From NCBI GenBank assembly GCA_943736015.1, contig OX031058.1, forward strand, positions 6,286,001 through 6,350,000: a DNA stretch of 64,000 bases. The letters run 5' to 3'. The notes below the pieces were generated by a model that saw nothing but the letters and a program-made list of their open reading frames with translations, did not search any database and was not told where the DNA came from. Positions 255 through 63,661 of this stretch are shown here, in pieces. A program made the translations under genes and the position numbers. This DNA comes from Tridacna crocea. Lineage: Eukaryota > Mollusca > Bivalvia > Cardiida > Cardiidae. Numbering within the stretch: position 1 is the first letter of the stretch; every line of letters begins with the position of its first letter.

Positions 255-430
255 TTGAAAAGAAAATCCTTAAAAAGTATAGCTGGTAAAGGAAGGAATC
301 AATATTTTCTTCTTTTTTAACAATGTTTTCTACCCTTCCTAAAACAAAATTTCAATTTCTGAGTCACATTTAATTTGTCGCCTGCAAAATGTTTTCAACT
401 GAACAAGTCTAAAATTTTGTAAAGAATTAA
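255..430 (-). repeat. Family A TTAA element, degenerate
   Basis: The tail end has decayed and the left palindrome arm is barely recognisable. The right arm (ACAATGTTTTCTACCCTTCC) and the head (GCCTGCAAAATG to AAAGAATTAA) are clear. Confidence 0.6.
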
Positions 431-524
431 AATATTGTTATTCCTTACAAAATGACAGAGGGCTGGTTAGCAGTAAAAGAGTAACTGACTCTTCCATTTC
501 TCAGGTGGGATAGGGTTTTATAAA

Positions 525-761
525 TAACTCTTAGCCAAATGACAAAATTTTAGATTTGTCCAAATCGAAAGCATTTGCAGACGACAAAATAAAAGTGACT
601 GAAAATTTGAAATTTGTTTTGTGAAGGGAAGAAAACATTGTGGGAAAAGCAGAAAATGCTGGTTTCCAGCATGGTTTCCAGCATTTTCTCCTTTTCCCAC
701 AATGTTTTCCAAAAGCTTTTTCAGGGTCATCAAAAGTAGGGATTGTATGGTAATGGGTTAA
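525..761 (+). repeat. Family A TTAA element with duplicated loop
   Basis: This copy has a full head, palindrome and tail, ending in TTAA at 758. The palindrome centre carries a short tandem duplication (TTTCCAGCATGG repeated), so the usual 1-base loop is enlarged. Confidence 0.88.
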
Positions 762-1038
762 GAGGGCAAGAGATATTTTTTTAGTAAAGATAAGTGAACA
801 TACATAGAAATATTACTGAACTTATCTTATAGCAACCCTTTACTATACAGTCTGTTCTTCCACAATGTATTGTAACCTTTCACAGGCAAATCAATTGATT
901 TCAGACACATTTTATTTTTCAACAGGAATTAATCATGCTTTTAATTTAGTGTCTTTGTCTTGTTGGAATGGTCAACTATTTAATAGACCAATAGATTTTT
1001 TGGCTCCTCAACATTTAAATATCTGTGAACAACAAAAT

Positions 1039-1267
1039 TTAACCCTTTACCACACAACAAATTTTAAGAACTATCCAAATTGAAAGCATTTGCAGATGAC
1101 AATTTCTTATTGGCTGAAATGATGCAATTTTTATTTGATAGGGTAGAAAATGTTACGGGAAAAGGAGAAAATGCTAGTTACCAGCATTTTCTCCTTTTCC
1201 AACAATGTTTTCAAAAGGCTTCTATCTCAAGAGTGTTAAAAGTCGGCATTCTGTGGTAAAGGGTTAA
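1039..1267 (+). repeat. Family A TTAA element
   Basis: The copy is complete from TTAA (1039) to TTAA (1264). The head is diverged (ACAACAAATTTTAAGAAC). It shares its right-hand TTAA with the next copy. Confidence 0.85.
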
Positions 1268-1431
1268 ATCAAATCTGGCTCATGTGATAGGATCTGTCTA
1301 TTGAAAGGGTAGAAAACATTGTAGGAAAAGGAGAAAATGCTGGTTACCAGCATTTTCTCCTTTTCCTACAATGTTTTCAAATACCTTCTTCTCTAGGGTT
1401 GCCCAAACAGAAGATTGCTTGATAAAGAGTT
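1264..1431 (+). repeat. Family A element with perfect palindrome, head lost
   Basis: The palindrome at 1312-1378 has two perfect 33-base arms around a single T. Both arms carry the same departure from consensus: GTAGG on the left and CCTAC on the right, where the family has GTGGG/CCCAC. The head is replaced by unrelated sequence and the tail is diverged. Confidence 0.85.
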
Positions 1432-1789
1432 GTATGTCTTGTACTGAGGGTTTAATGCAAAGTTTTTTGTTTTCTTTTTCAGCGAATTTTGAGGAAGTAT
1501 CAATTAGTACTTGGAGTGAGTAATAACACAAGCAGGAAAACAGCATGTACATGTAATCTAAAGAACTACTTTGACAGGCTGTCGCTTTGGAGGTCAGAGC
1601 CCTTTCAGTGCTAAATCGCAATGGAGTTTGCTTCCGCAGACAGTGTAGAACGAGCAGTCTGATCTTGGATCTACTCTGTTCATTTTTTGGCTAGATATTC
1701 TGGTGAAAACAGCCTTGAAACTGCAATAAGTTTATATGCATCTTTAGAACTTGAAAATGTTGTTTCATTTATTTAGCAATGCACGGGTT

Positions 1790-2028
1790 TTGCACTGTTC
1801 TACATTATCCCAACTTTTAACAAACCTGTGAAAAAAACCTTTGAAAATATTGTGGGAAATGGAGAATGACATGCTGTTTCTACATGGTTATGAGCATTTT
1901 CTCCTTTTCCCACAACGTTTTCCACTACATCAAAGATGAATTCCATCATATGCGCCAAGTTTAAATTGTTGTCTGCAAACCCTTTCAATTTGGACACATC
2001 AAATTTTTTTTGTGTTGTAAAGAGTTAA
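1790..2028 (-). repeat. Family A TTAA element, diverged
   Basis: The tail is weak. The left arm holds an insertion near the centre (GACATGCTGTTTCTACATGG), and the right arm (CATTTTCTCCTTTTCCCACA) is intact. The head ends in TTAA at 2025. Confidence 0.75.
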
Positions 2029-2569
2029 AAAGACGAATGACAAATTTATTGTAAGAAAAAGGAGAGCCTAATTGACTAATTAGTGAGGAAAATAGAGCCT
2101 GGGACAGGAAGTTTATGACGAATCTGCGGAAAGAACTTTGTGTTAAATTTCAAAAGACTGTTTCAATTGTTACAATGTGATTACAATAGGAAATCTTAGG
2201 TAAGTTGATATTACTTTTGTTTCAATTGTTTCCTTACAAAGAACATACTAACCTACAAATGTGACCTCCATCGGAACATTGTGTGATAAGGAGTGATTGC
2301 TTGTAACATGCAATAATCATTATTCATTTTCTCTCAATTTTTTTTATTCCTCTGAAACAACTCGACATGATAATTTTGATTTTGTCAACTGTTTCTTGCC
2401 CGTTCTGCATGGAGTACCATATTTTGCATAAGTTTTGGGATACCCAAAGAAAGTGGGACACCATCAAAAATAGCAAAAGTGATGATTCTTTATGACCCAA
2501 ACATGAAATTTTGGGCCGTACTAAAAATTGCAAGGCAAGATCAGTATTTCTTTGTTCCAAAGAATTTGG

Positions 2570-2728
2570 CACCTCTGCTGAAGCATGTGAGAAAAGTAGT
2601 CGGTGGCTTTGGAAAGAAAGTAGTGTAAGTACCGGTGTGAGAAAACCAGGAAACACATGTGTGTCACCGACCGCCATGATATGACCTTAGCTGTTAAAGT
2701 GGCGTTAAACCCCAATACAACCAACCAA
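2570..2728 (+). mobile_element. SINE S1, 5'-truncated, with 13-bp target duplication
   Basis: The body runs from CACCTCTGCTGAAGCATGTG to the tail AATACAACCAACCAA. It is flanked on both sides by CCAAAGAATTTGG (2557-2569 and 2729-2741), a direct repeat typical of LINE-mediated retroposition. It lacks the tRNA-like head present at 30919, so it is a 5'-truncated insertion. Confidence 0.88.
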
Positions 2729-2741
2729 CCAAAGAATTTGG

Positions 2742-2907
2742 ACAGTGAATGTCTATTTTAAAAAAAATCTTTCAGTCCATTTGTTACCCTTTATTTAAAA
2801 TTATTTATTTCGCAAAGATTTATTTCTACACACGTAACGTCGTATTAGCATGCTTCCCAACCCTCCCAATTTCAGTGGGTCTTTCCTGATTAAAAAAAAA
2901 CCAAACT
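2742..2907. other. Short stretch without identified feature
   Basis: AT-rich sequence with short poly-A and poly-T runs. I see no repeat or coding signal. Confidence 0.5.
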
Positions 2908-3023
2908 GACAATATCTTCTACCGCATCAAAGTCAGAATTCTTCGTATTAACAAGATTTAAATTGTCTGCAGATACTTTGAATTTTGTCCAGGCCAAAAA
3001 TTTGTTGTTTGGTAAAGAGTTAA
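2908..3023 (-). repeat. Family A, head half only
   Basis: Only the sequence from the right palindrome arm outward remains (CTTCTACC, GTCTGCAGATAC, TTTGGTAAAGAGTTAA). The tail and left arm are absent. Confidence 0.7.
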
Positions 3024-3059
3024 CACATCTTTATCAAATTATCCAGTACTTATGCATGG

Positions 3060-3180
3060 GCACTGAAGTGTCTTGTCTTAGGCCACTCCCATGAAAATCC
3101 CAGTAGATTCAGTAAGGCTTGAATCTCAGGTGCCTCCAGGTTATGAGTCTTACACTTCATCACTGAGACATGTAGGACCC
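3060..3180 (-). mobile_element. tRNA-derived SINE head (minus strand)
   Basis: The reverse strand reads as a tRNA-like unit: a box-A-like TGTCTCAGTGATGAAG followed about 30 bases later by a box-B-like GAGATTCAAGCC. I could not fix a 3' end or target duplication. Confidence 0.5.
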
Positions 3181-3278
3181 TTTTAACGAGGGAAAGAAGC
3201 CTTTTGGAAAAAAAATGTGAGAGAATTCAATGCTGGTTTTCTTTTCTCAAAGTACAAATCCCTATCATCTGAACCCCA

Positions 3279-3507
3279 TTAACTCTTTACCACACCAGAA
3301 AATTTTAGACTGGTCCAAATTGAAAGCATCTGCAGACGACAAAATAAAGCTGACTAAAAAGTACAAATTTGTTCTGGGAAGGGTAGAAAACACTGTGGGA
3401 AAAGGAGAAAATGCTGGTTACCAGCATTTTTTCCTTTTCCCACAGCGTTTTCAAGAGGCTTCTTACTCAGGGGCGTCAAAAGTTGGGATTGTGTGGTAAT
3501 GGGTTAA
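3279..3507 (+). repeat. Family A TTAA element, CACTGTG variant
   Basis: Complete copy. The left arm has CACTGTGGG and the right arm CCCACAGCG, so the change relative to CATTGTG is nearly matched on both sides. The tail reads GGGATTGTGTGGTAATGGG. Confidence 0.9.
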
Positions 3508-3510
3508 GCT

Positions 3511-3584
3511 TTATTTGTTATCTACAGAATACTTTCCATAAATTTTGATCTGGTCCAAAATTTTGTTGTCTGATAAAGGGTTAA
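3511..3584 (-). repeat. Family A head fragment
   Basis: Only the outer head remains (CTGGTCCAAAATTTTGTTGT to AAAGGGTTAA). Confidence 0.65.
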
Positions 3585-3644
3585 TTTAGGCCTTGTACCC
3601 CACGATCCACGCTTTCAGTGTCCCAGAGAATGAAAGCTTAGTTT

Positions 3645-5316: not shown

Positions 5317-5545
5317 TTAACCCATTACCACACAATCCCTACTTTTAACGACCCTGAAGAAAGAAGCCTTAGAAAACATTGTGGGAAAAGGAGAAAATGC
5401 TGCTAACCAGCATTTTCTCCTTTTCCCACAATGTTTTCTACCCCTCTCAAAACAAATTTCATATTTTCAGTCACTTTTATTTTGTCGTCTGCAAATACTT
5501 TTGATTTTGACAAGTCTAAAATATTATCGTTTGGTAAGGAGTTAA
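5317..5545 (-). repeat. Family A TTAA element
   Basis: Complete tail, palindrome and head. The centre is ATGCTGCTAACCAGCAT, with one mismatch next to the loop. Confidence 0.9.
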
Positions 5546-9007: not shown

Positions 9008-9208
9008 TATTGAAAACACCGTAGGAAAAAGACAAAATGCTGGTAACCGGCATTTTCTCATTTTCTGGAATCAGCCTGTCTGTCGGTGTGTGTGTCCGTC
9101 CATGTGTCCGTCTGTGTACAAAATACTAGTAATTGCCTGTTTCTGTCAAAGCACTGGCTGGGGTATTAAGTCACATCCAGTGACAGCTCTTGTTTAGCAA
9201 AGGGTTAA
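9008..9208. repeat. Family A element split by a short Helentron-like insertion
   Basis: Both palindrome arms are present at 9008-9063 (centre GGTAACCGG). The sequence then breaks and resumes as AGCAAAGGGTTAA at about 9196-9208. The part between the arm and the terminus has been lost or replaced. Confidence 0.65.
9064..9194 (+). mobile_element. Short Helentron-like non-autonomous element
   Basis: The 131-bp insert carries a GTCCGTCC-type run near its left end and finishes GTGACAGCTCTTGTTT. This terminal motif recurs at 11281, 23309 (reverse), 27068, 46605 and 62142. It has no core repeat units and no target duplication. Confidence 0.55.
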
Positions 9209-9436
9209 TCTTTTACCATACAATGACGACTTTTGATGACCCTGAGAAAGAAGCCTTTTGAAAACATTGTGGGAAAAGGAGAAAATGCTGGTAACCAGTA
9301 TTTTCTCCTTTTCCCATAATGTTTTCTACCCTTCCCAAATCAAATTTAGATTTTACAGTCACATATTTATTTTGTCGTCTGCAAATGCTTTCAATTTGGA
9401 CCAGTCTATAAATTTTGTTGTTTGGTAAAAGGTTAA
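9205..9436 (-). repeat. Family A TTAA element
   Basis: Complete copy sharing its left TTAA with the split copy. The palindrome has a single arm mismatch (CCAGTATTTTC). Confidence 0.9.
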
Positions 9437-10017: not shown

Positions 10018-11281
10018 TTATACGCCCGAAGGGTCGTATTATGTTATACCCCCAGTCGTCCGTCCGTTAGCAATTTCTTGTGTGCGCAACTCCTACAGTT
10101 TTCATCGGAATTATTTGAAACTTGCCACAATGAATCTCCATCATGTCTAGTTGTGCACCTGGGTCTTAGAATTTTGATCGCTGTTTTCGTTCCAAAATTA
10201 TCTGCCCTTGATTTCTGAAATAACCAACTTTTCACTTTGAATTTTTGTTCAGGCCATAACTTCCATACCATAAAAGGTATTAAATTGAAACTACATACAC
10301 TGATAGAACACATTATAGAGAAGTGCAGTGCACAAGAACCATAACTCTGCCACTTTTATTTTTTGAGTTACAGCCCTTTGTTAATTTTCAGTTTGAATTT
10401 TTGTCCAGGCCATAAGTTCTAGACTATAAAAGCTATTAACTTTGAACTTCATACACTGATAGATAACATTGTGGAGAAGTGCATCGCACATGAACCATAA
10501 CTCTGCCACTTTTATTTTTTGAGTTATTGCCCTTTGTTAATTTTCAGTTTGAATTTTTGTCCAGGCCATAACTTCCAAACTATAAAAGCTAATAACTTGC
10601 AACCTCATATAGTGATAGAACACTTTATGGAGAAGTGCATTGCACATGAACAATAACTCTGCGACCTTTATTTTTTTACTTATTGCCCTTTGTTAATTTT
10701 CAGTTTGAATTTTTGTCCAGGCCATAACTTCCAAACTATAAAAGCTAATAACTTGCAACTTCATACACCGATAGAACACATTATGGAGAAGTGCAGTGCA
10801 CATGAACCATAAGTCTGCGACTTTTATTTTTTTAGTTATTGCCCTTTGTTAATTTTTTAGTTTGAATTTTTGTCCAGGCAATAACTCCCAAACTTTAAAA
10901 CCTATCATCTTCAAACTTCAAAGACTTATAGAACACATTATAAAGAAGTGCACTGCACAAGAACCATAACTCTGCCATCCTTCTTTTTTTACTTATTGCC
11001 CTTTGTTAGTTTTCTCTTTGAATTTTCGTCTGGGCCATAATTTCTAAAATATAAAAGCCATGATCTTGAACCTTTCAAAACTGATAGAACACCTTTTGGA
11101 GAACAGCAATTTACAAAATTTGTAACTGTGCCACCCTTTCTTTTTTTAGTTATTGCCCTTTAATATTTTTCACATATCATGGAGATTAACTACTCTTCAT
11201 TCATGGCCCTTCCGTCATTTCAACTCATTTCACTGACAAGCCCCTTCGGGCGTATATGCGCCGCTTTGCGAAGCTCTTGTT
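10018..11281 (+). mobile_element. Helentron-like element with six 156-bp core repeats
   Basis: The left end TATACGCCCGAAGGG is matched in reverse by CCCTTCGGGCGTATA near the right end (about 11243), followed by a short hairpin and the 3' end GCTCTTGTT. GTCCGTCCG lies near the left end. The phrase AGGCCATAAC or a variant recurs at 10251, 10407, 10563, 10719, 10876 and 11032, a 156-157-bp period. The offset inverted repeats, 3' hairpin, T-rich target and lack of duplication fit known Helentron/HINE structure in bivalves. No helicase is encoded. Confidence 0.72.
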
Positions 11282-12609: not shown

Positions 12610-12843
12610 TTAACTCTTTACCACACAATCCCAACTTTTAAGGACCCTGAGATAGAAGCCTTTTGAAAACATTGTGGGAAAAGGAGAAAATGCTGGTAAC
12701 CAGCATTTTCACCTTTTCCCACAATGTTTTCTACACTCCCAAAATCAAAAATCAATTTTTGATTCACATTTATTTTGTCGTCTGCAAAATTAATGCTTTC
12801 AATTTGGAGTAGTCCAAAATTTTGTTGTTTGGTAAAGAGTTAA
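12610..12843 (-). repeat. Family A TTAA element
   Basis: Complete copy with one arm mismatch (CATTTTCACC). The head has a small insertion (TCTGCAAAATTAATGC). The TTAA at 12840 is shared with the next copy, placing the two head-to-head. Confidence 0.92.
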
Positions 12844-14277: not shown

Positions 14278-14345
14278 TTAATTTGTCATCTGCAAATACT
14301 TTGGACATGGACAAGACCAAAATTTTGTTTTTTGATACAAGTTAA
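14278..14345 (-). repeat. Family A head fragment
   Basis: The sequence TTTGTCATCTGCAAATAC to ACAAGTTAA is a head end whose other half is missing; family C occupies the adjoining position. Confidence 0.7.
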
Positions 14346-14563
14346 CTCTTATCAAATGACAAAATTGTATACTGGTCAAAATTGAAAGTACTTGCAGACA
14401 ACATGTAACTCAGAAAATAAAATTTGTTTCCAGCCAGGTAGAAAACATTGTGGGAAAAGGTGAAAATGCTGGTTACCAGCATTTTCTCCTTTTCCCTCAA
14501 TGTTTTCAAAAGGTTTCTGTCTCAGGGTTGTGAAAAAGCAGAGATTGCTCGGTAAAGGATTAA
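14342..14563 (+). repeat. Family A TTAA element
   Basis: Complete copy sharing TTAA with the pieces on both sides (14342 and 14560). The left arm has GGTGAAAATG and the right arm CCCTCAATG, so the arms are not matched here. Confidence 0.88.
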
Positions 14564-14788
14564 CCCATTACCACACAATCCCTACTTTTGACGCCCCTGA
14601 GAAAGAAGCCTCTAGAAAACACTGTGGGAAAAGGAGAAAATGCTGATAACCAGCATTTTCTCCTTTTCCCACAGTGTTTTCTACCCTTCCCAAACCAAGT
14701 ATTAGCTTTTCAGTAACCTTTATTTTGTCGTCTGCAAATGCTTTCAATTTGGACAAGTGTATGATTTTCTTGTGTGGTAAAGAGTTAA
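14560..14788 (-). repeat. Family A TTAA element, CACTGTG/CACAGTG variant
   Basis: Both arms carry the variant base pair: ACACTGTGGG on the left and CCCACAGTGT on the right. The centre is CTGATAACCAG, with one mismatch. Confidence 0.92.
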
Positions 14789-15275: not shown

Positions 15276-15500
15276 TTAACCCTTTACCACATGGTAAAAC
15301 TTTAAATCTATCCAAATTAAATGCATTTGCAGACGACAATTTCATAGTGGCTTAAACGATCCAATTTTCCTTTGAAAACTTTGTGAGAAATTTTAAGGAG
15401 AAAATGCTGGTAACCAGCATTTTCTCCTTTTCCCACAAAGTTTTCAAAAGGCTTCTCCCTCGGGGTCGTCAAAAGTTGTTATTGTGTGGTAAAGAGTTAA
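15276..15500 (+). repeat. Family A TTAA element
   Basis: Complete copy with an ACTTTGTGAG left arm and a CCCACAAAGT right arm, partly matched. It is preceded by a 28-bp tail-type fragment (15248-15275) sharing its TTAA. Confidence 0.85.
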
Positions 15501-15547
15501 TAAACCTGAAAAAGAAGGCCTTTGAAAGAATTGTGGGAAGTATGTTG

Positions 15548-15789
15548 TAATTCTGTCATTAGTGTAAATGCTATAATTTTGTCCTGGCAGTGAACACTAT
15601 AATTTTGTCCTTGGTGTAAACACTAATTTTGTCCTTGCTGTAAACAAGGTAATTTTGTCCTTGGTGTTAATACTAATTTTGTCCTTGGTGTAAACACTGT
15701 AATTTTGTCCTTGGTGTAAACACTAATTTTGTCCTTGGTATAAACTCTGTAATTTCGTCCTAAGTATCAACACTGTAATTCTGTCCTTA
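15548..15789 (+). repeat. Minisatellite, ~24-26-bp unit, about ten copies
   Basis: The unit is TAATTTTGTCCTTGGTGTAA followed by ACACT or ACACTG, in diverged head-to-tail copies. It lies between two broken family A pieces. The unit resembles the family A terminus (AATTTTGTCGTTTGGTAAA), so it may have expanded from one; that is inference. Confidence 0.85.
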
Positions 15790-15808: not shown

Positions 15809-15912
15809 TTTACCAAACAACAATGCCAAGTTTTAACAACCTTATGGATGAAAGGTTTTGAACACCTTGCAAGAAAAGAAAGGTACTCTTTTACCAGCAT
15901 TTTCTCAATTAA
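15809..15912 (-). repeat. Family A tail fragment
   Basis: Starts TTAATCTTTTACCAAACAAC and includes a partial palindrome (ACCAGCATTTTCTCAATTAA), where it is cut by the TTAA of the next element. Confidence 0.6.
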
Positions 15913-16137
15913 CCCTTTACCCCATAAGGCATTTTTATGGTATCTCTAATTGACCCTATATAACAGGAAGGATGAAGCCGTTTCTTATACGTATATGACA
16001 CCTTTTGATAGTGTGGAAAACATTGTGGCAAAAGGTGAAATTGCTCGTGACGAGCAATTTCACCTTTTGCCACAATGTTTTCCAAAGGCTCCTACAAGCA
16101 ATGTGTTGAAATGAGTATCTATGGAGTAAAGGGTTAA
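15909..16137 (+). repeat. Family B TTAA element, perfect palindrome
   Basis: Termini are TTAACCCTTTACCCCATAAG and GGAGTAAAGGGTTAA. The palindrome arms AAACATTGTGGCAAAAGG... are perfectly complementary around GCTCGTGACGAGC. Confidence 0.93.
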
Positions 16138-17460: not shown

Positions 17461-17633
17461 TTAACTCTTTACCAAACGACAAAATTTTAGCCTTGTCCAA
17501 AGTGAAAACATTTGTAGACGACAATTTCAGTGTGGCTCAAATGGTGTAATTTAGAAAACATTGTGGGAAAAGGAAAAAATCCTGGTTACTAAGGCTTCTT
17601 TTCCAGGAGTGTCAAAAGCCGGTAAAGGGTTAA
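17461..17633 (+). repeat. Family A element with one palindrome arm deleted
   Basis: The head and left arm are intact up to CCTGGTTACT; the right arm is missing and the tail resumes at AAGGCTTCTT. Both TTAA ends remain. Confidence 0.85.
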
Positions 17634-19164: not shown

Positions 19165-19393
19165 TTAACCCTTTACCAAACAGTCTCGGGTTTTCTCGAC
19201 CCTGAGAAAGAAGCCTTCTGAAAACATTGTGGGAAAAGGAGAAAATGCTGGTAACCAGCATTTTCTCCTTTCCCCACAATGTTTTCTACCCTTCCCAAAA
19301 CTAGTTTCAATTTTTGAGTTACTTTAACTTTGTCATCAGCAAATCCTTCCAATTTGGACTAGTCTAAAACTATATTGTTTGGTAAAGACTTAA
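19165..19393 (-). repeat. Family A TTAA element
   Basis: Complete. The palindrome is near perfect with one change in the right arm (TCCTTTCCCC). It shares TTAA 19390 with the next piece. Confidence 0.92.
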
Positions 19394-19474
19394 TCTTTTA
19401 CCAAAGGACACAATTTTAGACTGATCCAAATTGATAGCAGTTGCAAATGAAAATAAATTCTTCTTAATCCTTAA
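19390..19474 (+). repeat. Family A head fragment between two TTAA
   Basis: Only the head (TTACCAAAGGACACAATTTT to TTGCAAATGAAAATAAATTC) remains, bounded by the TTAA of both neighbours. Confidence 0.75.
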
Positions 19475-19698
19475 CCCTTTACCACACAGTGCCGACTTTT
19501 GATGACCCTTGAAGGAAGCCTTTTGAAAATATTGTGGGAAAAGAAGAAATTGCTGGTAACCAGCATTTTCTCCTTTTCCCACAATGTTTTCTGCCCTATT
19601 TGATACATATTTCAAATTTTCAGTCACTTTAATTTTAAAGTCTGCAAATGCTTTAAATTTGGACAAGTTTAAAATTTTGTCATTTGGTAAAGAGTTAA
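19471..19698 (-). repeat. Family A TTAA element
   Basis: Complete copy with a diverged left arm (AAATTGCTGGT). A head fragment follows at about 19699-19790. Confidence 0.9.
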
Positions 19699-21580: not shown

Positions 21581-21848
21581 CCTATAAGGTACCTGTCACA
21601 ACAGTTGTAGTTGCCTTTGGTGCTTTTATAGATTGAATTCAGGCTGCACAAAGCGTGCAGCCTGATTGTTAATCTACACAGTCCACTTCGCTGAAACACT
21701 GTAGACAAAAGCAAGAATGAAAATGAAGTTGTTCAGGATGTATTTCTATGATGAAAAATGTCTGATAGGTTTATTCCGCACTCTAAGGATAAATGGGTAT
21801 TGAGTTTATTGATTTCACCAATAAGGTAATATTCAAAATGAAAATGCA

Positions 21849-22210
21849 TTCCATCTGTTTAGGTTGTTGTGGAGGAAATTTAGCAGCACTTTACTTCCTG
21901 CAAACATTTCTCGTATTGCAGATTACCACTTGAAGCTCATTCGGGTAGCTCATTGATTAGCTATTGGATTTGCATCATCATCAGGTGCCCTGATAATGAT
22001 GTTAGCTGTGAAAAATGGCCCTAAACTCATTCCATCTGTTTAGGTTGTTGTGGAGGAAATTTAGCAGCACTTTACTTCCTGCAAACATTTCTCGTATTGC
22101 AGCTTACCACTTGAAGCTCATTCGGGTAGCTCATTGATTAGCTATTGGATTTGCATCATCATCAGGTGCCCTGATAATGATGTGAGCTGTGAAAAATGGC
22201 CCTAAACTCC
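21849..22210 (+). repeat. Recent 181-bp tandem duplication
   Basis: The block starting TTCCATCTGTTTAGG at 21849 is repeated starting at 22030, with about two differences over 181 bases (GCAGATTACC against GCAGCTTACC; GATGTTAGC against GATGTGAGC). Each copy contains a small hairpin, CATCATCATCAGG...CCCTGATAATGATG. Confidence 0.93.
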
Positions 22211-26251: not shown

Positions 26252-27068
26252 TAAGCTCATTTGAGCACAACATGCTCTAAATGAGCTTTTGTGATAATGC
26301 TGTGTGAGGAGTCTATAGTGCGGTGTGTGTCGTTCTTCATCTACTTTTATCTTGTGTACGGTCTCGCTGAGAGGCGTAACTTTTAATCCAAAATTCACTG
26401 ATACATGGTCAGAATATTTGGCTTGATGATATCTTGGCCAAGTTTGATGGGTCATTGACATGTCAAAAACTGGGTCATTGGGTCAAATAATAAGATGAGA
26501 TTGAAAATGGATCACATTAGGTCTAAAAGTAGGTCGCCATATCAATTCTTTGAAAAATCTTGTGTACATTCTAGAGGCCACATTTTCTGTCCAATACTCA
26601 TGAAAGGTGTTCAGAATCTTTGTTTTAATAATATGTACAACAGACAGTAAAATGGGCTATTTTTGGCTTAAATCTTTACCACACAATCCCAACTTTTAAC
26701 GACCTTGAGAAAGAAAGCCTTTGAAAACATCATGGGAAAAGGAGAAAATTCTGGTAAACAGCATTTTCTCCTTTTCCCACAATGTTTTCTACCCTTTCCA
26801 GGACAAATTTCAATTTTTGATTCACATTTATTTTGTCGTCTGCAAATGGTTTTAATTTGGACTAGTTCAATATTTTGTCGTTTGGTAAAGAGTTAAAAGG
26901 AGGTCAGTAAGACAAATTCTAGAAAAGCTTGTGTGCACGCTTGTGGCCAAATTTTCATTTTACTTCTTCACGACTGTTTGCCATAATATCTGGGCAGAGA
27001 TTGGAAATTTCATGTTTGGTCAAAAGGCTCAGGTGAGCAACTCCAGGGTCATCTTGGCCCTCTTGTTT
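26252..27068 (+). mobile_element. Helentron-like element (AAGCTCATTTGAGC type)
   Basis: The left end is AAGCTCATTTGAGCACAAC...AAATGAGCTTTTGTG, a short hairpin. The right end has CTCAGGTGAGCAACTCCAGG, mirroring the left, then ATCTTGGCCCTCTTGTTT. The offset inverted ends and CTCTTGTTT terminus repeat the plan of the TACGCCCG elements. Without the nested family A copy it is about 590 bp. Confidence 0.65.
26668..26896 (-). repeat. Family A TTAA element nested inside the Helentron-like element
   Basis: Complete with TTAA at both ends (26668 and 26893). The palindrome has AAATTCTGGTAAACAGCAT at the centre. It is younger than its host element. Confidence 0.92.
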
Positions 27069-28072: not shown

Positions 28073-28307
28073 TTAACCCAATTTACCACACAATCCCTAC
28101 TTTTGACAACCCTGGGAAAGAAACCTGTAGAAAACATTGTGGGAAAAGGAGAAAATGCTGGTAACCAGCATTTTCTCCTTTTCCCACTATGTTTTCTACC
28201 CTTCACAAAACAAATTTCAAATCTTTGGTCACTTTTATTTTGTCGTCTACAAAATAATGCTTTCGATGTGGACAAACCTAAAATTTTGTTGTTTGTTAAT
28301 GAGTTAA
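28073..28307 (-). repeat. Family A TTAA element
   Basis: Complete. The right arm has CCCACTATG. A small insertion sits in the head (CTACAAAATAATGC). Confidence 0.9.
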
Positions 28308-28535
28308 CCCATTACCAAACAATCCCAGGTTTCCACGACCTGTGGAAAAGTCCTGGCCTTTTGAAAACATTATGGGAAAGGAGAAAATACTGGTAACCAG
28401 CATTTTCTCCATTTTCCACAATGTTTTCCACCCTGTCAAATGACAATTGCACCATTTCAACCACACTGAAATTGTCGTCTGCAATTGCTTTCATTTCGGA
28501 CAGAGCTAATATTTCATCATCTGGTTATGGGTTAA
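28304..28535 (-). repeat. Family A TTAA element
   Basis: Complete, diverged head (AACCACACTGAAATTGTCGT). It is tail-to-head with the previous copy and shares TTAA 28304. Confidence 0.88.
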
Positions 28536-30344: not shown

Positions 30345-30573
30345 TTAACTCATTACCATACAACGAAATTTTAGACTTATTCAAATCAAAAGCATTTGCA
30401 GACAACAAGGTAAAAGTGACTGAAAATTTGAAATTTGTTTTGTGAAGGGTAGAAAACATTGTGGGAAAAGGAGAAAATGCTGGTTACCAGCATTTTATCC
30501 TTTTCCCAAAATGTTTTCTAAAGGTTTCTTTCTCAGGGGCATCAAAAGTAGGGATTGAGTGGTAGTGGGTTAA
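30345..30573 (+). repeat. Family A TTAA element
   Basis: Complete; right arm ATTTTATCCTTTTCCCAAAATG. It shares TTAA 30570 with the next copy in the same orientation. Confidence 0.92.
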
Positions 30574-30810
30574 CCCTTTACCAAACGACAAAGTTTAAAC
30601 TTGTCCAGAATGAAAGCAGTTGCAGACAACAAAAAAAAAACAAAAAGAATATGTAACTCAAAAATTTGAAATTTGTTTCCATCAGGGTAGAAAACATTAT
30701 GGGAAAAGAAGAAAATGCTGGTTACCAGCATTTTTTCCTTTTCCCACAATGTTTTCAAAGGCTTCTTTCTCAGGGTCGTCAAAAGTAGGGCTTGTGTGGT
30801 AATGGGTTAA
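30570..30810 (+). repeat. Family A TTAA element
   Basis: Complete. The head carries an A-run expansion (GACAACAAAAAAAAAACAAA). The palindrome is GGGAAAAGAAGAAAATGC / GCATTTTTTCCTTTTCCC, partly matched. Confidence 0.92.
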
Positions 30811-38364: not shown

Positions 38365-38593
38365 TTAACTCTTTACCAGAAAATCCCGACTTTTAACGAC
38401 CATGAGAAAGAATCCTTTTGAAAACATTGTTGGAAAAGGAGAAAATGCTGGTAACCAGCATTTTCTCCTTTTCCCACAGTGTTTTTTACTCTATCATGGA
38501 CAAATTCTGCCATTTGAGCCACACTGAAACTGTCATCTGCAAATGCTTTCAATTTGGACCAGTCTATAATTTTGTCGTTTGGTAAAGAGTTAA
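38365..38593 (-). repeat. Family A TTAA element
   Basis: Complete. Arms TTGTTGGAAAAGG / CCTTTTCCCACAGTG differ. The head carries GAGCCACACTGAAACTGTCA. Confidence 0.92.
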
Positions 38594-39987: not shown

Positions 39988-40217
39988 TTAACTCTATACC
40001 AAATGACAAAATTTTAGACTGGTCCAAGTTGAAAGCATGTGCATACAACATAATAAATGTAACTCAAAAAATAAAATTCGTGGCCAGCAGGGCAGAAAAC
40101 AATGTGGGAAAAGGAGAAAATGCTGGTAACCAGCATTTTCTCCTTTTCCCACATTGTTTTGAAAAGGTGTCTGTCTTAGGGTCATAAAAACCAGGGATTT
40201 GTTTGTTGAAGGGTTAA
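39988..40217 (+). repeat. Family A TTAA element, matched arm variant
   Basis: Arms 40096-40127 and 40129-40160 are perfectly complementary around a single A. Both carry the same change: ACAATGTGGG left and CCCACATTGT right (family: ACATTGTGGG). It follows a 20-bp end fragment. Confidence 0.92.
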
Positions 40218-40493: not shown

Positions 40494-40723
40494 TTAATCC
40501 TGTACCAAACAATCCCAAGTTTTAACCACTCAAGGAAACAAGGCTTTTGAAAATATTGTGGGAAAAGGGGAAAATACTGGATAACAGCATTTTCTTCCCT
40601 TTCTCACAACTTTTTATATCCTTTCTGAAACAAATTCTAGCATTCAGACCACACTTAACTCTTCGTCTTCAAATACTTTCAATTTGGACAAGTCTAAATA
40701 TTTGTCATTTGTTAACAAATTAA
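40494..40723 (-). repeat. Family A TTAA element, diverged
   Basis: Complete layout, centre ATACTGGATAACAGCAT. The head end is altered (TTTGTTAACAAATTAA). Confidence 0.82.
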
Positions 40724-44758: not shown

Positions 44759-44988
44759 TTAACACTTTACTAAACAATCCCTTGTTTTTACGACCCTGGA
44801 AAACAGGCATTTGAAAACATTGTGGGAAAAGGAGAAAATGCTGGTAACCAGCATTTTCTCCTTTTCCCACAATGTTTTCTGCCCCATTAGAGAGCTCAAG
44901 TTTATTTACACAGTTTCGGATCAGTTATTGTCTGCAGATGTTTCTGAAATATATAGAGTCCAAAATTCGACGTTTGGGAAAGGGTTAA
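44759..44988 (-). repeat. Family A TTAA element, perfect palindrome
   Basis: Complete, consensus arms around GGTAACC. The head is diverged (CAAGTTTATTTACACAGTTT). Shares TTAA 44985. Confidence 0.92.
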
Positions 44989-45814: not shown

Positions 45815-46605
45815 TATACGCTCGTCGAAGACGGGACGTATTATGGGATCACCCGTGGCGGGCGGGCGGGCGTCCAGGCGTCCGGGCGGGCGGGCGGCGT
45901 CCAGTTCTTTGTCCGGAGCATATCTCCAAAACTATACTAGCTAGGGTTATGAAATTTCATGGGTGGATACATCTCATCGAGGGGGAGTGCAGTGCACAAG
46001 AATCATAACTCTTGCTCGCTTAATTTTTGAGTTATTGCCCTTTGTTGTTTTTCATACTTGAATTTTGTCCGGAGCATATCTCCAAAACTATACTAGCTAG
46101 GGTTATGAAATTTTATGGGTGGATAGATCTCATTGACGGGGAGTGCAGTGCACAGGAATCATAACTCTTGCTCGCTTATTTTTGAGTTATTGCCCATTGT
46201 CGTTTTTCATACTTGAATTATGTCCGCAGCATATCTCCAAAACTATACTAGCTAGGGTTATGAAATTTCATGGCTGGATAGATCTTACCGAGGGTGTGTG
46301 CAGTGCACAAGAATCATAACTCTTGCTTGCTTAATTTTTGAGTTATTGCCCTTTGTCGTTTTTCATACTTGATTTTTGTACGGAGCATATCTCCAAAACT
46401 ATAGTAGCTAGGGTTATGAAATTTCATGGGTGGATAGATCTCATCCATGGGGAGTGCAGTGCACAGGAATCACAACTCTTGCTTGCTTTATTTTTGAGTT
46501 ATTGCCCTTTGTTGTTTTTCATACTTGAATTTTGTCCGGTGCATGCCCCACCTTTACAACTTGGGGTAAGACGGGCGTATCTTGCGACAATTTGCCGCTC
46601 TTGTT
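45815..46605 (+). mobile_element. Helentron-like element with four 156-bp core repeats
   Basis: The left end TATACGCTCGTCGAAGACGG (a hairpin) is mirrored by AAGACGGGCGTAT near the right end, which then reads CTTGCGACAATTTGCCGCTC TTGTT. A GGGCGGGCG run lies near the left end. Core units start GTCCGGAGCATATC at 45911, 46067, 46222, 46378 and 46534, the last truncated. The core unit differs in sequence from the 10018 element but has the same period and shares GAGTTATTGCCCTTTGT. Confidence 0.74.
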
Positions 46606-46809: not shown

Positions 46810-47038
46810 TTAAACCATTACCACACAATCCCTACTTTTGACGCCCCTGAGAAAGAAGCCTTTTGAAAACACTATAGGAAAAAGAGAAAATGCTGGTTAC
46901 CAGCATGTTGTCCTTTTCCCACAGTGTTTTCTATCCTTTGCAGAACAAATTTCTATTTTTTAGTCACCTTTATTTTGTCGTCTGCAAAGGATTTCATTTT
47001 GGACCAGTCAAAAATTTTGTCGTTTGGTAAAGAGTTAA
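46810..47038 (-). repeat. Family A TTAA element
   Basis: Complete. The left arm is ACACTATAGGAAAAAGAG, the right arm GCATGTTGTCCTTTTCCCAC. Shares TTAA 47035. Confidence 0.9.
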
Positions 47039-52248: not shown

Positions 52249-52460
52249 TTAATCCTTTAGCACACAATTAGGAGTTTTTGAACAACCTTGAAGGGAAAAA
52301 AGCTTTGAAAATATAATGGGAAAAGGAGAAAATGCTGGCAACCAGCATTTTCTCCTATGTTCAGAATGTTTTCTATTCCTCCCCAAAAATTTTGATTTAG
52401 TTTCAATTTTTGCTTTTTTTTAGGACAAGTCTTGATTTTTATCATTTGGTAAAGAGTTAA
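52249..52460 (-). repeat. Family A TTAA element, shortened head
   Basis: Left arm ATATAATGGGAAAAGGAG, right arm CCTATGTTCAGAATG. The head lacks the GTCGTCTGC segment. Confidence 0.82.
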
Positions 52461-53537: not shown

Positions 53538-53541
53538 TTAA

Positions 53542-56885: not shown

Positions 56886-57114
56886 TTAACTCATTACCAC
56901 ACAAGAAAATTTTAGACCGGTCCAAATTGAAAGCATTTGCAGACGAAAAAATAAAGGTGACTGAAAAATAGAAATTTGCTCTGAAAAGGGTAGAAAACAC
57001 TGTGGGAAAAGGAGAAAATGCTGGTTACCAGCATTTTCTCCTTTTCCCACAGTGTTTTCAAAAGGCTTCTTTCTCGGGGGCGTCAAAAGTAGGGATTGAG
57101 TGGTAATGGGTTAA
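56886..57114 (+). repeat. Family A TTAA element, perfect CACTGTG palindrome
   Basis: Arms from 56993 to 57060 are perfectly complementary and carry CACTGTGGG / CCCACAGTG. Shares TTAA 57111 with the next copy. Confidence 0.94.
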
Positions 57115-58655: not shown

Positions 58656-58699
58656 TAATAATTTTACAGCCGAGATCTGATCCAATATTTTTCTTTTCA

Positions 58700-58862
58700 T
58701 ACTTTACTCTTTTATCATAGGATTTCGACTTTTACAACAAAACAAAGTTCTTGAAAATGTTTGAGGAATTTAAATACAAATTCCATTATTCCAGTTATAT
58801 TTAATTTGCCAGTGGTTGGAGTTTTGACCAGTCTAAAATATTTTCTTTCAGTAAAGTTTTTA
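58700..58862 (-). repeat. Family A element, highly degenerate
   Basis: Tail-like TTTATCATAGGATTTCGAC and head-like TTGACCAGTCTAAAATATTT without a palindrome. Confidence 0.5.
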
Positions 58863-59067
58863 AGCCTTTACTGCACAATGCCCCTTTTTAACAACCTGTA
58901 GCAAAGCCTTAGAAACCACTGTGGTAACCAGCATTTTCTCCTTTTCCCACAGTGTTTTCTACCGTACCAAAATGGCACCATTTCAGTCACATTGCAATTA
59001 CATGTCATCTGCAAATCCTTTGAATTTGGATAAGTGGCTAGAATTTTGTTCTCTGATAAAGGATTAA
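58860..59067 (-). repeat. Family A element with left palindrome arm deleted
   Basis: GAAACCACTGTGG jumps directly to TAACCAGCATTTTCTCC, so the inner left arm is gone. The right arm and head are complete. Confidence 0.85.
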
Positions 59068-59203: not shown

Positions 59204-59353
59204 TTTGCCGTTTACCAAACAAACAGATGTTTTACGGACCCTTAGGAAGGAGTGTTTTGAAAACATTATGGGAATAGCAGAAAATGCTGGTAACCAGCAT
59301 TTACTATTTCCTTTCCACAAAATGCTGGAGAAAAGAAAATGTATTGCTGTTAA
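59204..59353 (-). repeat. Family A element, head lost
   Basis: Tail GTTTACCAAACAAACAGATG and palindrome (GGGAATAGCAGAAAATGC) end in ATGCTGGAGAAAAGAAAATG instead of a head. Confidence 0.7.
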
Positions 59354-59578
59354 CCCATTACCACACGAGAAAAATTTAGACTGGTCCAAATTGAAAGCAT
59401 TTGCAGACGACAAAATAAAGGGGACTGAAAAATTGAAATTTGTTCTAGGAAGGGTAGAAAACACTGTGGGAAAGGGAGAAAATGCTGGTTACCAGCATTT
59501 TCTTCTTTTCCCACAGTGTTTTCAAAAGGCTTTTTTCTCAGGGGCATCAAAAGTAGGGATTGTGTGGTAATGGGTTAA
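59350..59578 (+). repeat. Family A TTAA element, CACTGTG variant
   Basis: Complete. CACTGTGGG / CCCACAGTG matched arms with two inner mismatches. Very close to the copy at 56886. Confidence 0.93.
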
Positions 59579-59729: not shown

Positions 59730-60056
59730 TTAACCCTTTACTATCCTGAGGGCTGATAGGTCATACATGGCTCTAAGACATGCAGCCTGGGGGTCCTGGG
59801 TTTGAACCTCACTGGAAGGTCACATTTTGTCTAGGTAGTGTCCTTGGGCAACTCTCTCAAGAATCAATTTAGTCACAGTTTTAACAAACTTGATAAAGGC
59901 TTTTGAAAAAATTGTGGGAAAAGCAGAAAATGCTAGCAGAACTTGTATTTTCTCCTTTATCTACAATGTTTTCGAACCTTCTAAAGATGATACTGTCAAT
60001 TTGGGCCACAATTGGTTTATCCTCTGCAAATACTTCCAAATTATTACATGTATTAA
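59730..60056 (-). repeat. Family A element split by a SINE
   Basis: The tail starts TTAACCCTTTACTATCC and is broken after ~12 bases. It resumes at about 59879 with TTTTAACAAACTTGATAAAG and continues through a poor palindrome to TTAA 60053. Confidence 0.72.
59742..59878 (+). mobile_element. tRNA-derived SINE, short
   Basis: Box-B-like GTCCTGGGTTTGAACCTC with an upstream GGCTGATAGGTCATAC region. The body has GTGTCCTTGGGCAACTC, a phrase common to animal SINE bodies. Confidence 0.6.
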
Positions 60057-60283
60057 CCTTTTACCAAACATTCCCTGGTTTTTACAACCCTGAGATAGAA
60101 GCCTTTTGAAAACATGGTGGTAAAAGGAAAAAATGCTGGTAACCAGCATTTTCTCCTTTTCCCACAATGTTTTCTACCCTGTTAGAAACAAATTCCAATT
60201 TTTGAGTTTAGTTGATTTTGTCATCTGCATTAGTGCTTTAAATTTGGACCAGTCGTAAATTTGGTTGTTTGGTAAAGGGTTAA
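60053..60283 (-). repeat. Family A TTAA element
   Basis: The last transposon before the DAAM exon. Left arm changed (ATGGTGGTAAAAGG), right arm consensus. Confidence 0.92.
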
Positions 60284-60384
60284 TCAAATCTAAATTAATT
60301 CGGTCTTGTCTCAGAGGATAACATAAAGTTTTGACTGAATTTTATTGTTCTATGTTCAGCTTTAAGCATAATAAGCTAATATCT

Positions 60385-60403
60385 ACATACACTCTATTTT
60401 CAG
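60385..60403 (+). promoter_or_regulatory. DAAM: Splice acceptor before the first coding exon of DAAM
   Basis: ACACTCTATTTTCAG is a pyrimidine-rich tract ending in CAG at 60401-60403. It implies a spliced non-coding 5' exon upstream. The exon then starts ATGAACAGTTAA, a four-codon upstream ORF (60404-60415) that ends before the DAAM start codon and might lower translation. Confidence 0.75.
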
Positions 60404-60451
60404 ATGAACAGTTAACTACAAGCAAGTGAAAATATCAACTAGTTTCGAATA

Positions 60452-60607
60452 ATGCCAAGTAAACAGACATTTTGTTGGTGTTTTGGTGGCCGGCCTCCAG
60501 ATATTAAATATGGAATTGACAGCGGAACACCCCTCAAATCCATGGCACTGGATATCCCTATGCCGGCTGATGAGAACGAACTCAATGCAAAGTTTGAAGA
60601 GCTTGTG
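60452..60607 (+). CDS. DAAM: DAAM formin, first coding exon (N-terminus)
   Basis: The 52 codons begin MPSKQTFCWCFGGRPPDIKY and end NELNAKFEELV, followed by donor GTAAGA. The short basic/Cys-rich start, the RPPDIKY stretch, and the D/E-rich lead into FEELV match the N-terminus of Dishevelled-associated activator of morphogenesis. DAAM proteins link Wnt/planar polarity signalling and Rho GTPases to actin filament assembly through C-terminal FH1-FH2 domains, and act in the cytoplasm. The exon covers the region just before the GTPase-binding domain. I chose this start because it is the first ATG in frame after the acceptor and matches the usual length ahead of the GBD. The exon ends in phase 0. 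Confidence 0.93.
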
Positions 60608-60651
60608 GTAAGACATGCCTTTACTTAGCTCCTAGTGTTCAGAAAGCCACT

Positions 60652-62267
60652 TTAACCCTATACCACACAATGGCTACTTTTGACGACCCTCAGAAAAAAG
60701 CCTGTAGAAAACATTGTGGAAAAAGGAGAAAATGCTGGTATCCAGCATTTTCTCCTTTTTATACGCCCGTCGAAGACGGGACGTATTATGGGATCACCAG
60801 TGGCGGGCGGGCGTCCGGGCGGGCGGGCGGCGTCCAGTTCTTTGTCCGGAGCATATCTCCAAAACTATTCTAGCTAGGGTTATGAAATTTCATGGGTGGA
60901 TAGATCTCATCGAGGGGGAGTGCAGTGCGCAGGAATCATAACTCTTGCTTGCTTAATTTTTGAGTTATTGCCCTTTGTTTTTCATACTTGAATTTTGTCT
61001 GGAGCATATCTCCAAAACTATACTACCTAGGGTTATGAAATTTTATGGGTGAATAGATCTCATCGAGGGGGAGTGCAGTGCGCAGGAATTATAACTCTAG
61101 CTTGCTTAATTTTTGAGTTATTGCCCTTTGTTGTTTTTCATACTTGATTTTTGTCCGGAGCATATCTCAAAAGGTATACTAGCTAGGGTTATGAAATTTC
61201 ATGGGTGGATAGATCTCAGAGAGGGGGAGTGCAGTGCGCAGGAATCATAACTCTAGCTTGCTTAATTTTTGAGTTATTGCCCTTTGTTGTTTTTCATACT
61301 TGAATTTTGTCCGGAGCATATCTCCAAAACTATACTAGCTAGGGTTATGAAATTTCATGGGTGGATAGATCTCATCAAGGGGGAGTGCAGTGCACAGGAA
61401 TCATAACTCTTGCTCACTTAATTTTTGAGTTATTGCCCTTTGTCGTTTTCCATACTTGAATTTTGTCCGGAGCATATCTCCAAAACTATACTAGCTAGGG
61501 TTATGAAATTTCATGGGTGGATAGATCTCACTGAGGGGGAGTGCAGTGCGCAGGAATCATAACTCTTGCTTGCTTAATTTTTTAGTTATTGCCCTTTGTC
61601 GTTTTCCATACTTGAATTTTGTCCGGAGCATATCTCCAAAACTATACTAGCTAGGGTTATGAAATTTCATGGGTGGATAGATCTTATCGAGGGGGAGTGC
61701 AGTGTACAGGAATCATAACTCTAGCTTGCTTAATTCTTGAGTTATTGCCCTTTGTTGTTTTTCATACTTGAATTTTGTCCGGAGCATATCTCCAAAACTA
61801 TACTACCTACGGTTATGAAATTTCATGGGTGGATAGATCTCAAATAGGGGCAGTGCAGTGCAGAGGAATCATAATCCTTGCTTGCTTAAGTTTTGAGTTA
61901 TTGCCCTTTGTTGTTTTTCATACTTCAATTTTGTCCAGAGCATATCTCCAGAACTATACTAGCTAGGGTTATGAAATTTCATAGCTGGATAGATCTCATC
62001 AAGGGGGAGTGCAGTGCACAGGAATCATAACTCTTGCTCGCTTTATTTTTGTTTTTCATACTTGAATTTTGTCCAGTGCATGCCCCAGCTTTACAACTTG
62101 GGGTCAGACGGGAGTATCTTGCGACATTTTGCCGCTCTTGTTCCACTATGTTTTCTACCTTTCCCAAATTAAATTTTGATTCTTCATGCAGTCAAATTTA
62201 TTTTTGTCATCTGCAAATGCTTTCAATTTGGACCAGTCTATAAATTTGTCTTTTGGCAAAGAGTTAA
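60652..62267 (-). repeat. Family A element split by a Helentron-like element
   Basis: Tail and nearly all of the palindrome (centre GGTATCCAG) run to TTTTCTCCTTTT at 60759. The copy resumes with CCACTATGTTTTCTACC at 62143 and ends TTAA 62264. It starts only 45 bases after the DAAM splice donor. Confidence 0.88.
60760..62142 (+). mobile_element. Helentron-like element with eight 156-bp core repeats
   Basis: Left end TATACGCCCGTCGAAGACGG, with GGGCGTCCGGGCGGGCGGG beyond. GTCAGACGGGAGTAT mirrors it near the right end, then TTGCGACATTTTGCCGCTC and TTGTT. GTCCGGAGCATATC or variants start at 60844, 60997, 61153, 61309, 61465, 61621, 61777, 61933 and 62071 (truncated). Core units are more alike than in the 10018 element, so this array is younger. 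It inserted in the T-run of a family A arm without target duplication, which gives both element ends precisely. Confidence 0.8.
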
Positions 62268-62366
62268 AGCCCATAAGAAGTGTGTATTTTAGCTGAGATT
62301 AGACATACTATGCAGTCTGATCTAGATCCTGTCACTGGCTGAAAGGTCAGCTGGTAGCATTCATGA

Positions 62367-62595
62367 CTTGCCCATTACCACACAATCCCTACTTTTGACA
62401 CCCCTGAGAAAGAAACCTTTAGAAAACATGGTTGGAAAAGGAGAAAATGCTGGTAACCAGCATTTTCTCCTTTTCCCACTATGTTTTAAACCCTTCACAA
62501 AACAAATTTCAAAATTTCAGTCACTTTCATTTTGTCGTCTGCAAATGCTTTCGATTTGGACAAGCCTAAAATATTGTCGTTTGGTAATGAATTAA
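62367..62595 (-). repeat. Family A element in DAAM intron
   Basis: Left TTAA mutated. Arms AACATGGTTGGAAAAGG / CCTTTTCCCACTATG. Head consensus to GGTAATGAATTAA. Confidence 0.9.
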
Positions 62596-62599
62596 TACA

Positions 62600-62846
62600 G
62601 GAGGTCTCTGACCTGATCCAAGGCTGGGTCATTTTCTCTCACTGAGCATTGATGATGGTCATTGCAACAGGATTCATTCATGTCTCACCCCTCACCAGTG
62701 TTTGGACAATTATAGTTCTGTGTGAAAGCAGCCGGTGGCATGGAAAGAATATTGTGCAGAGTACTCGGGTAAAAGAAACTTCAGGCAGGGATGGATGGAT
62801 GCATGCAGTGTTGCCGAGATATTTCTGAATTACATTGAAAATTGTG
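62600..62846 (+). mobile_element. SINE S2, 5'-truncated
   Basis: Starts within the body (CTGATCCAAGGCTGGGTC); carries GGCATGGAAAGAATATTGTG and CAGGCAGGGATGGATGGATG; ends ACATTGAAAATTGTGTT at the next TTAA. Confidence 0.65.
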
Positions 62847-63075
62847 TTAACTCTTTACCAAAAGAAAAAAATGTTGGACTGGTCCAAATAAAAGGCATTT
62901 GCATATGACAACTTAAAGATGGCTTTAGAGCTGAAACTTGTCCTTCATAGAGTAGAAAAAATTGTTGGAAAAGGAGAAAATGTTGGCAACCAGCATTTTC
63001 TCCTTTTTCCACTGTTTTGTAATTAGGCTCCTTTTCAAGGGTCGCTAAAGCCCGGATAGTTTGGTAAAAAGTTAA
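62847..63075 (+). repeat. Family A TTAA element in DAAM intron
   Basis: Complete. Left arm AAAATTGTTGGAAAAGG, centre TTGGCAACCAG, right arm ending CCACTGTTTTG. Confidence 0.9.
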
Positions 63076-63572
63076 ACACCACAGGCTCAATCACAATACA
63101 GAGTTATAACTGTCTCGAAGATAGATACTTTTGAACACATTTTGGGGAGAAAAGAAAATGCTTAAAACCAGCATTTCATGTGTTTCATTTCTATCTCTGT
63201 AACATAGCAATAGCTGTCAAAAGTGAACAAAGCCAGTGTGAAAATGCATTGAAATTTAATCATACCATAAATTTTACAAGTCTGGAAAGTTTTATGAAGA
63301 TGACTATCTGTTATTGTTCATTTGGTCCAAGTGTTAGTCGCTGGCACAGAAAGTTATTTCAAACTAAGGTAAAAAGTTGTCAGGTCACTCTATCTTTGGT
63401 TTACCTTTTTTCTGACATTGAAATTTATTTTTCATCCAGCTACTAAACACTTAGACCAATCACACAATAACAGATATCTTCTATAATTTTTATTGGTTTG
63501 TTTTTAATTTAAAAGTTTTTTTATTGCATGCATTCTTTTTTTGCAGCCATTGGGCCTTTCAAGAAGGAAATC

Positions 63573-63661
63573 ATCACCAGCATTTTCTCCTTTTCCCATG
63601 ATGTTTTGTAAAGACTTTTTCCTCAGGGTTGTTAAAACCCGGAAATGTTTGGTAAAGGCTA
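63573..63661 (+). repeat. Family A right half, adjacent to DAAM second coding exon
   Basis: CACCAGCATTTTCTCC through GTTTGGTAAAGGCTAA; the left half is missing. It lies about 115 bases before the exon. Confidence 0.7.

Follow-up and report, generated by a model that had tools for sequence, protein, structure and literature searches.

A palindromic piggyBac-type MITE family and its likely transposase source in the genome of Tridacna crocea

How does one short palindromic repeat come to occupy about a third of a 64-kb stretch of a bivalve genome? The stretch in question – 64,000 nucleotides of Tridacna crocea (GenBank assembly GCA_943736015.1, contig OX031058.1, positions 6,286,001 to 6,350,000), referred to below at its full length as the window – is crowded with copies of a TTAA-bounded miniature inverted-repeat transposable element (MITE), and an initial annotation, made from the sequence alone, took this density to be exceptional and ascribed it to local hopping or to tolerance within a large DAAM intron. 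Our data indicate a different answer: the genome as a whole is saturated with the MITE, and the window lies towards the upper end of its range. With a probability of roughly 0.85 we read the repeats as a piggyBac MITE superfamily spread by insertion at TTAA, likely using the transposase of a 7.2-kb piggyBac element that this genome also carries; the reason for which the palindrome at the centre of the MITE is kept is excepted from that figure.

A profile built from an alignment of 33 window copies recovered 127 non-overlapping pieces from the window, extending from 223 to 63660 (no strand applies to the set as a whole) and covering 20,851 of 64,000 bp, or 32.6%; the reversed window gave no match. 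The estimate of a quarter to a third of the sequence was thus accurate, while the 90–100 pieces counted by hand were somewhat too few. The pieces comprise 57 near-full-length copies, 23 left ends, 26 right ends and 21 internal fragments, in mixed orientation (55 on the plus and 72 on the minus strand), and the six full 10-kb bins of the window range from 18 to 41% MITE, with at least 30% in all but one. A scan for long hairpins that made no use of the profile found 168 in 264 kb (the window plus the 20 stretches described below), a few of which belong to another palindromic repeat, against none in one Markov control.

The consensus is 229 bp long (about 230 bp had been proposed) and consists of a left end TTAACTCTTTACC, a central 67-bp palindrome and a right end GGTAAAGGGTTAA (or GGTAATGGGTTAA); the palindrome, whose length had been correctly anticipated, forms 33 of 33 pairs in the consensus of the main subfamily. 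The terminal repeats measure 13 nt and share the motif CYCWTTACC, the left end being mostly CTC and the right end, read inwards, CCC, so that the ends are not strictly of the CCYTTTACC type first described. For the piggyBac superfamily a terminal motif CC[C/T]T has been given (PMC2872659); the right end of the MITE reads CCCWTT inwards, and the left end is CCCTTT in three of five subfamilies, the main subfamily, like the 7.2-kb element, having CTCWTT there. Short length, terminal inverted repeats, target duplication and high copy number, which together define a MITE, are all present.

Exact TTAA flanks the left end in 37 and the right end in 37 of the 57 near-full window copies, and both ends in 28. 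When the window is combined with the genome sample, 78 of 163 near-full copies carry TTAA at both ends, and the proportion falls from 35/49 among the least diverged through 21/47 in the middle class to 22/67 among the most diverged, the trend that decay of inserted copies at their ends would give. The choice of TTAA as target was put to comparison with empty sites: the joined flanks of 103 copies gave junction-spanning matches in 29 cases, many of them trivial in that the flanks lie within other copies of the family, and at least two clean empty sites, each with a single TTAA, are among the matches listed. In the first, the copy at L013:3731-3959 sits in a 156-bp satellite array whose adjoining units lack it (89–90% identical over ~245 bp, one TTAA); in the second, a dispersed repeat holds the copy at L019:367-595, and a relative of that repeat (L003:2006-2250, 93% identical) has no copy and one TTAA.

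The question of density was addressed by sampling. The genome comprises 1.05 Gb in 31 contigs, nearly all of it in 18 contigs of 40–77 Mb, and the window lies on contig C3; 20 stretches of 10 kb each were taken at round coordinates on 13 of the 31 contigs, chosen before their content was seen. Together these 200 kb hold 215 MITE pieces, 106 of them near full length, with a mean coverage of 19.3% (standard deviation 11.9, range 2.8–43%; bootstrap interval about 14.5–25%), and no match when reversed. A second profile, made from 163 copies, gave 19.9%. Extrapolated to the genome, these figures correspond to ~1.1 million pieces (0.82–1.45 million), or about 200 Mb, including ~0.56 million near-full copies (0.41–0.71 million).

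A central issue is the source of the enzyme. The initial annotation found no partner transposase, and indeed none of the 118 listed genome matches to the transposase domain PF13843 falls inside the window, of which no dedicated transposase search was made; a likely partner does exist elsewhere in the genome. These matches include several pieces of one gene (116 of 196 candidates were scored), and the DNA was read around 20 of the places, 4 kb each. One group, L028/L036/L040, corresponds to the long element with matching ends that had been suggested as a check: a 7.2-kb piggyBac element with ends TTAACTCATTACCAC and TTAACCCATTACC. Alignment of the copies on contigs C15 and C3 over 7,223 columns shows 99.64% identity, the similarity starting exactly at TTAACTCATTACCAC and stopping at GGTAATGGGTTAA, with unrelated DNA outside on both sides; the left end occurs at six near-identical places in the genome and at three diverged or partial ones. 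On the minus strand of L028:1156-2616 an open frame of 486 amino acids from its ATG matches DDE_Tnp_1_7 (PF13843) with an E-value of 1.8e-88 and, among PDB sequences, piggyBat (chain 9c0f, 1.9e-39) and 6x67 (2.5e-36), the latter of which we take to be the T. ni piggyBac transposase. The aspartates of its SVDE, YFDN and GGVDLHD motifs, presumably the catalytic ones, align with aspartates of piggyBat. An acidic frame upstream, for which Pfam offers nothing convincing, resembles a first exon and may be one.

The strongest link between MITE and partner is a common motif spacing. At its right end the partner carries AGGGGCGTCAAAAG at 130, 95, 60 and 25 bp from the end (with 3, 2, 0 and 0 mismatches, respectively), a period of 35 bp. 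In the last 62 nt of the near-full MITEs the same motif is found at three mismatches or fewer in 76 of 163, and 71 of these 76 have it at exactly 25 bp from the end, 15 motif-bearing copies without any mismatch; counted on either strand, the real window holds 30 matches and a shuffled window two. The family shares both its ends and a subterminal motif with an element of the same genome that encodes a piggyBac transposase, and with the TTAA empty sites this bears out the initial assignment: the repeats are a piggyBac-type MITE family. To judge from sequence, the 7.2-kb element is its likely enzyme source.

Near-full MITEs lie at Kimura two-parameter (K2P) distances of 0.06–0.60 from the overall consensus (median 0.18), while one subfamily of five copies stands on average 4.3%, and at minimum 1.8%, from its own consensus. 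In a search of the genome with one window copy, the best other copies among the 40 of 4,215 candidates scored were 95% identical, and the two partner copies differ by 0.4%. The spread of ages, the young subfamily and the similarity of the partner copies together argue for a long amplification in waves and an enzyme source that has recently moved.

On the reading we favour, the MITEs would be one superfamily of ~229-bp non-autonomous piggyBac elements, distributed throughout the genome by TTAA-targeted insertion, with the 7.2-kb element – same ends, same right subterminal motif – as the likely provider of transposase; this enzyme, or extinct sisters of it, would bind the common ends and move the MITEs. 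Several points weigh against it. Movement of the MITEs by this particular transposase is something we infer. The MITE left arm matches the partner in the first 15 nt only; 87 of the 163 near-full MITEs do not reach the threshold of three mismatches to AGGGGCGTCAAAAG; the left end is CTC and not CCY, which leaves CCY at both ends only partly realised; and for the subfamilies ending CCCTTTCCC no partner was identified among the loci read. Finally, since most MITEs are old, with a median K2P of 0.18, most must have been moved by ancestors of the partner or by sisters now lost.

The most conserved part of the element is the palindrome, at 0.88 compared with 0.755 for the arms and 0.81–0.82 for the terminal 20 nt; internal sequence thus exceeds the terminal repeats in conservation, as in CMITE-like MITEs (see below). 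The way in which copies were picked does not by itself account for this: where arm matches alone defined them, a long hairpin is formed by 149 of 186 cores, but not by the other 37, and by none of 186 shuffled cores, and the median identity to the consensus is 92.5% for the core and 78% and 80% for the arms. Five subfamily consensuses, representing 102 of the 163 copies, retain 33 of 33 pairs in four cases and 32 of 33 in one. Two of these subfamilies, with arms 76% and 78% identical, have palindromes identical at 67 of 67 positions; one subfamily differs from the main one at six palindrome positions that make up three matched pairs.

Such matched changes recur among individual copies. Among 154 unique cores of the 186, and for 27 of the 33 pairs, there are 50 compensated double changes (29 double changes without pairing, 509 single changes). 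Shuffling gave a mean of 17.6 and at most 28 in 500 rounds, and sliding the partners by one to three positions gave 5–20. A separate count over 163 copies and all 33 pairs gives 73 compared with 21 in shuffles (maximum 33). Both are tallies of cells or copies and not of independent events, a single pair supplying 13 compensated cells in the first count and 17 in the second. The core palindrome, then, stays self-complementary while it changes. As RNA, the consensus has a predicted fold of -51.7 kcal/mol (z -15); Rfam returned no match at gathering score, and the palindrome core was absent from the viral contigs searched.

What maintains the palindrome is a matter on which readings differ. The simplest, to which we would give even odds, is that copies seeding new copies must keep it: an intact palindrome, as a DNA hairpin or cruciform or as a hairpin RNA, would make a copy a good source of further copies. 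A rather unlikely alternative is that the palindrome has no role in amplification and either owes its symmetry to the correction of one arm by the other, through repair templated by a cruciform or hairpin, or simply mutates less. Changes that match in both arms are what correction would produce, and when pairs of copies are binned by separate columns, palindrome divergence is about half that of the arms at every depth, the closest pairs included (0.054 versus 0.10–0.12, n = 12). However, correction, if unbiased, explains the symmetry of the changes but not their lower rate, and the invariance of all 67 positions between two subfamilies whose arms are 76–78% identical also speaks against this alternative; so does the closest bin formed on arm distance, where the two divergences are equal (0.047 and 0.048, n = 15) as they should be under equal decay after insertion, although binning of this kind is biased towards equality. 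Correction and selection may both act, or the palindrome may simply mutate less.

We propose, tentatively and at well under even odds, that the 67-bp palindrome functions in cis as a structure: it changes in matched pairs and is under tighter constraint than the terminal repeats, and it would be what has allowed a 229-bp element to fill roughly one fifth of a genome of gigabase size. It might do so as a cruciform that aids excision or synapsis, by re-replication after excision, or through a hairpin RNA that alters the silencing of the element itself. If this were true, the family and the MITEs of coral discussed below would together make up a class of piggyBac MITEs whose core is structured and serves amplification.

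An unlikely possibility, though one to be taken seriously, is that the MITEs were moved mainly by some other piggyBac lineage, extinct or unsampled, of which the 7.2-kb element is only a relative. The age of most MITEs is in keeping with this, as are the 118 transposase matches (some being pieces of one gene) with DNA read around 20, and the CCCTTTCCC subfamilies, which have no exact match to the partner. Against it stand the ends of the 7.2-kb element, which match those of the MITEs, the subterminal motif that both carry equally far from the end, and the fact that no other ends determined match equally well. Those ends are as follows: CCCATTTATGCC for L023; CCCTTTATATAC for L025, L032 and L033, and for L031 at one end only; CCCTTTCAGYGC for L026; CCCTWGTCATGC for L027 and L029; and, for L030, two candidate pairs that score alike, one of them CCCTCTAGA. 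All were rejected as partners on a poorer match than that of L028/L036/L040. Several of these piggyBac families thus have CCC-type ends that differ from those of the MITE. For L021, L022, L024, L034, L035, L037, L038 and L039 no clean end pair was found within the 4 kb read; by kinship L035 goes with L029, L037 and L039 with L026, L038 with L025, and L021 with L024.

That the elements hopped locally, leaving the window an exceptional cluster in a tolerant intron, is very improbable. The window does exceed the sample mean, with five of its six bins at 30% or more, and a mild regional excess may surround it; but the idea of a local cluster is wrong, because the same family covers 19.3% of 20 stretches on 13 contigs, with individual values of 2.8–43% and three of the 20 above the window average. 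A further point in favour of local hopping, the 26 pairs of copies that abut within 8 bp in the window (often with a TTAA in common), depends on the null model: 26 is higher than under uniform placement (mean 3.1, 95% range 0–7), and lower than under a model in which every TTAA, even one next to an older copy, can serve as a target (mean 39, range 30–48) and which takes no account of later decay. Abutment is therefore not above what TTAA insertion predicts. As to the intron, a frame at 63677-63904 of the window has a weak match to the diaphanous formin domain Drf_GBD (E-value 0.0011, below the Pfam cut-off) and none among PDB sequences; it is consistent with an exon of a formin such as DAAM, an identity that we assume. 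The case also shows that, before a dense patch of repeats is given a local explanation, its density should be set against that of the genome as a whole.

Membership of Kolobok, another TTAA-targeting superfamily and one found, among the molluscs studied, almost exclusively in bivalves (PMC10294476), is scarcely credible: the ends of Kolobok and T2-MITE elements start with purines (AG, AGGRR; PMC6004289) and those of our MITE with CY, a difference in terminal motif on which we rejected this assignment, and the element with matching ends has a piggyBac-type transposase. That the copies belong to a single long tandem satellite, a possibility the initial annotation had itself raised and to which the 26 abutting pairs might lend some colour, can be dismissed on the mixed strands, the absence of any array of the unit in the output of a tandem-repeat finder, and the existence of empty sites.

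The nearest precedent found is that of the CMITEs, piggyBac-like MITEs of Acropora corals (PMC2872659). Both duplicate TTAA and have ends of the CCCTTT type, though in our family only partly so; both occur alongside a piggyBac-like element whose ends resemble theirs; and in both the interior is better conserved than the terminal repeats (in CMITEs, between families). The differences concern size and scale – CMITEs measure ~100 bp and are estimated at ~1,600 copies in A. millepora (PMC2872659), compared with 229 bp and an extrapolated ~0.56 million near-full copies here – and the nature of the conserved region, in our family a palindrome whose changes come in matched pairs; a text search of PMC2872659 for 'palindrom', 'hairpin' and 'secondary structure' gave nothing. 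Its authors noted that the internal region may matter for transposition and left the issue open; compensated changes turn that remark into a testable structural claim. The family thus extends the CMITE pattern beyond corals, with far more copies and with the addition of a palindrome showing matched changes.

Pokey of Daphnia, like the partner proposed here, is a piggyBac transposon with MITEs of its own (mPok), but it targets ribosomal DNA (PMC4912750, PMC3849761), whereas our insertions are dispersed. The T2-MITEs of Xenopus likewise have a TTAA target and long-lived families, and differ in their AGGRR ends and Kolobok transposase (PMC6004289). With respect to abundance, TE2641_SO2_FAM0704, a MITE and the most abundant transposable element family in the DNA-transposon-rich genome of the rice weevil, makes up 1.3% of that genome (PMC8576890); the ~19% of sampled DNA – about a fifth – that derives from one family in T. 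crocea is far above this, the one single-family figure found. For the disco clam the corresponding values are 1.6% for all MITEs together and 0.0% for PiggyBac (PMC11373642). Searches of the open-licence PMC literature listed no paper that describes this family or a piggyBac MITE with a palindromic core, though the genome paper of the host may contain such a description. Because a candidate partner with an open frame and several near-identical copies is present in the same genome, a direct test can draw on the MITE, its partner, the empty sites and a natural series of variants of the palindrome.

The window copies with TTAA at both ends are near full length except where stated. Those on the plus strand lie at 1039..1267, 3279..3507 (with AGGGGCGTCAAAAG in its right arm; its inner part was the query of the genome search), 14342..14563, 15276..15500, 15909..16137 (a variant palindrome with symmetric changes in both arms), 17461..17633 (with an internal deletion), 30345..30573 and 30570..30810 (which abut one another), 39988..40217, 56886..57114 (left end TTAACTCATTACCAC, as in the partner), 59350..59578 and 62847..63075. 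On the minus strand they are found at 5317..5545, 9205..9436, 12610..12843, 14560..14788 (head-to-head with the copy at 14342..14563, whose right TTAA it shares), 19165..19393, 19471..19698, 26668..26896, 28073..28307 and 28304..28535 (again abutting), 38365..38593, 40494..40723, 44759..44988, 46810..47038, 52249..52460, 58860..59067 and 60053..60283.

Some further features were observed in passing. The MITE at L005:239-467 has landed in a TTAA midway along the palindrome of a second copy, and the partner element (L028, L040 and flanking loci L041–L046) contains at least three nested near-full MITEs of its own kind, nested copies being common to both partner copies compared. Among the other piggyBac loci, L021 and L024 are 94–96% identical over most of 4 kb, their element ends not having been found, and L030 has long inner inverted arms with hairpins (975-1040 and 3083-3120) whose base, GAAAACATTGTG, is as in the MITE palindrome and whose inside, judged by eye, differs from it. 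A second palindromic repeat, with core ...ACACAACTTCTGATTGGC... and a sequence unrelated to the MITE, occurs at L003:5505-5626 and at L017:8966-9085 and 1497-1576. Arrays of the 156-bp satellite occupy positions 10229-11172, 45908-46544 and 60841-62051 of the window; related arrays are present in loci L002 and L013 and recur among the empty-site matches. The window also holds a 181-bp tandem duplication (98% match) at 21847-22209 and a 26-bp minisatellite at 15546-15788.

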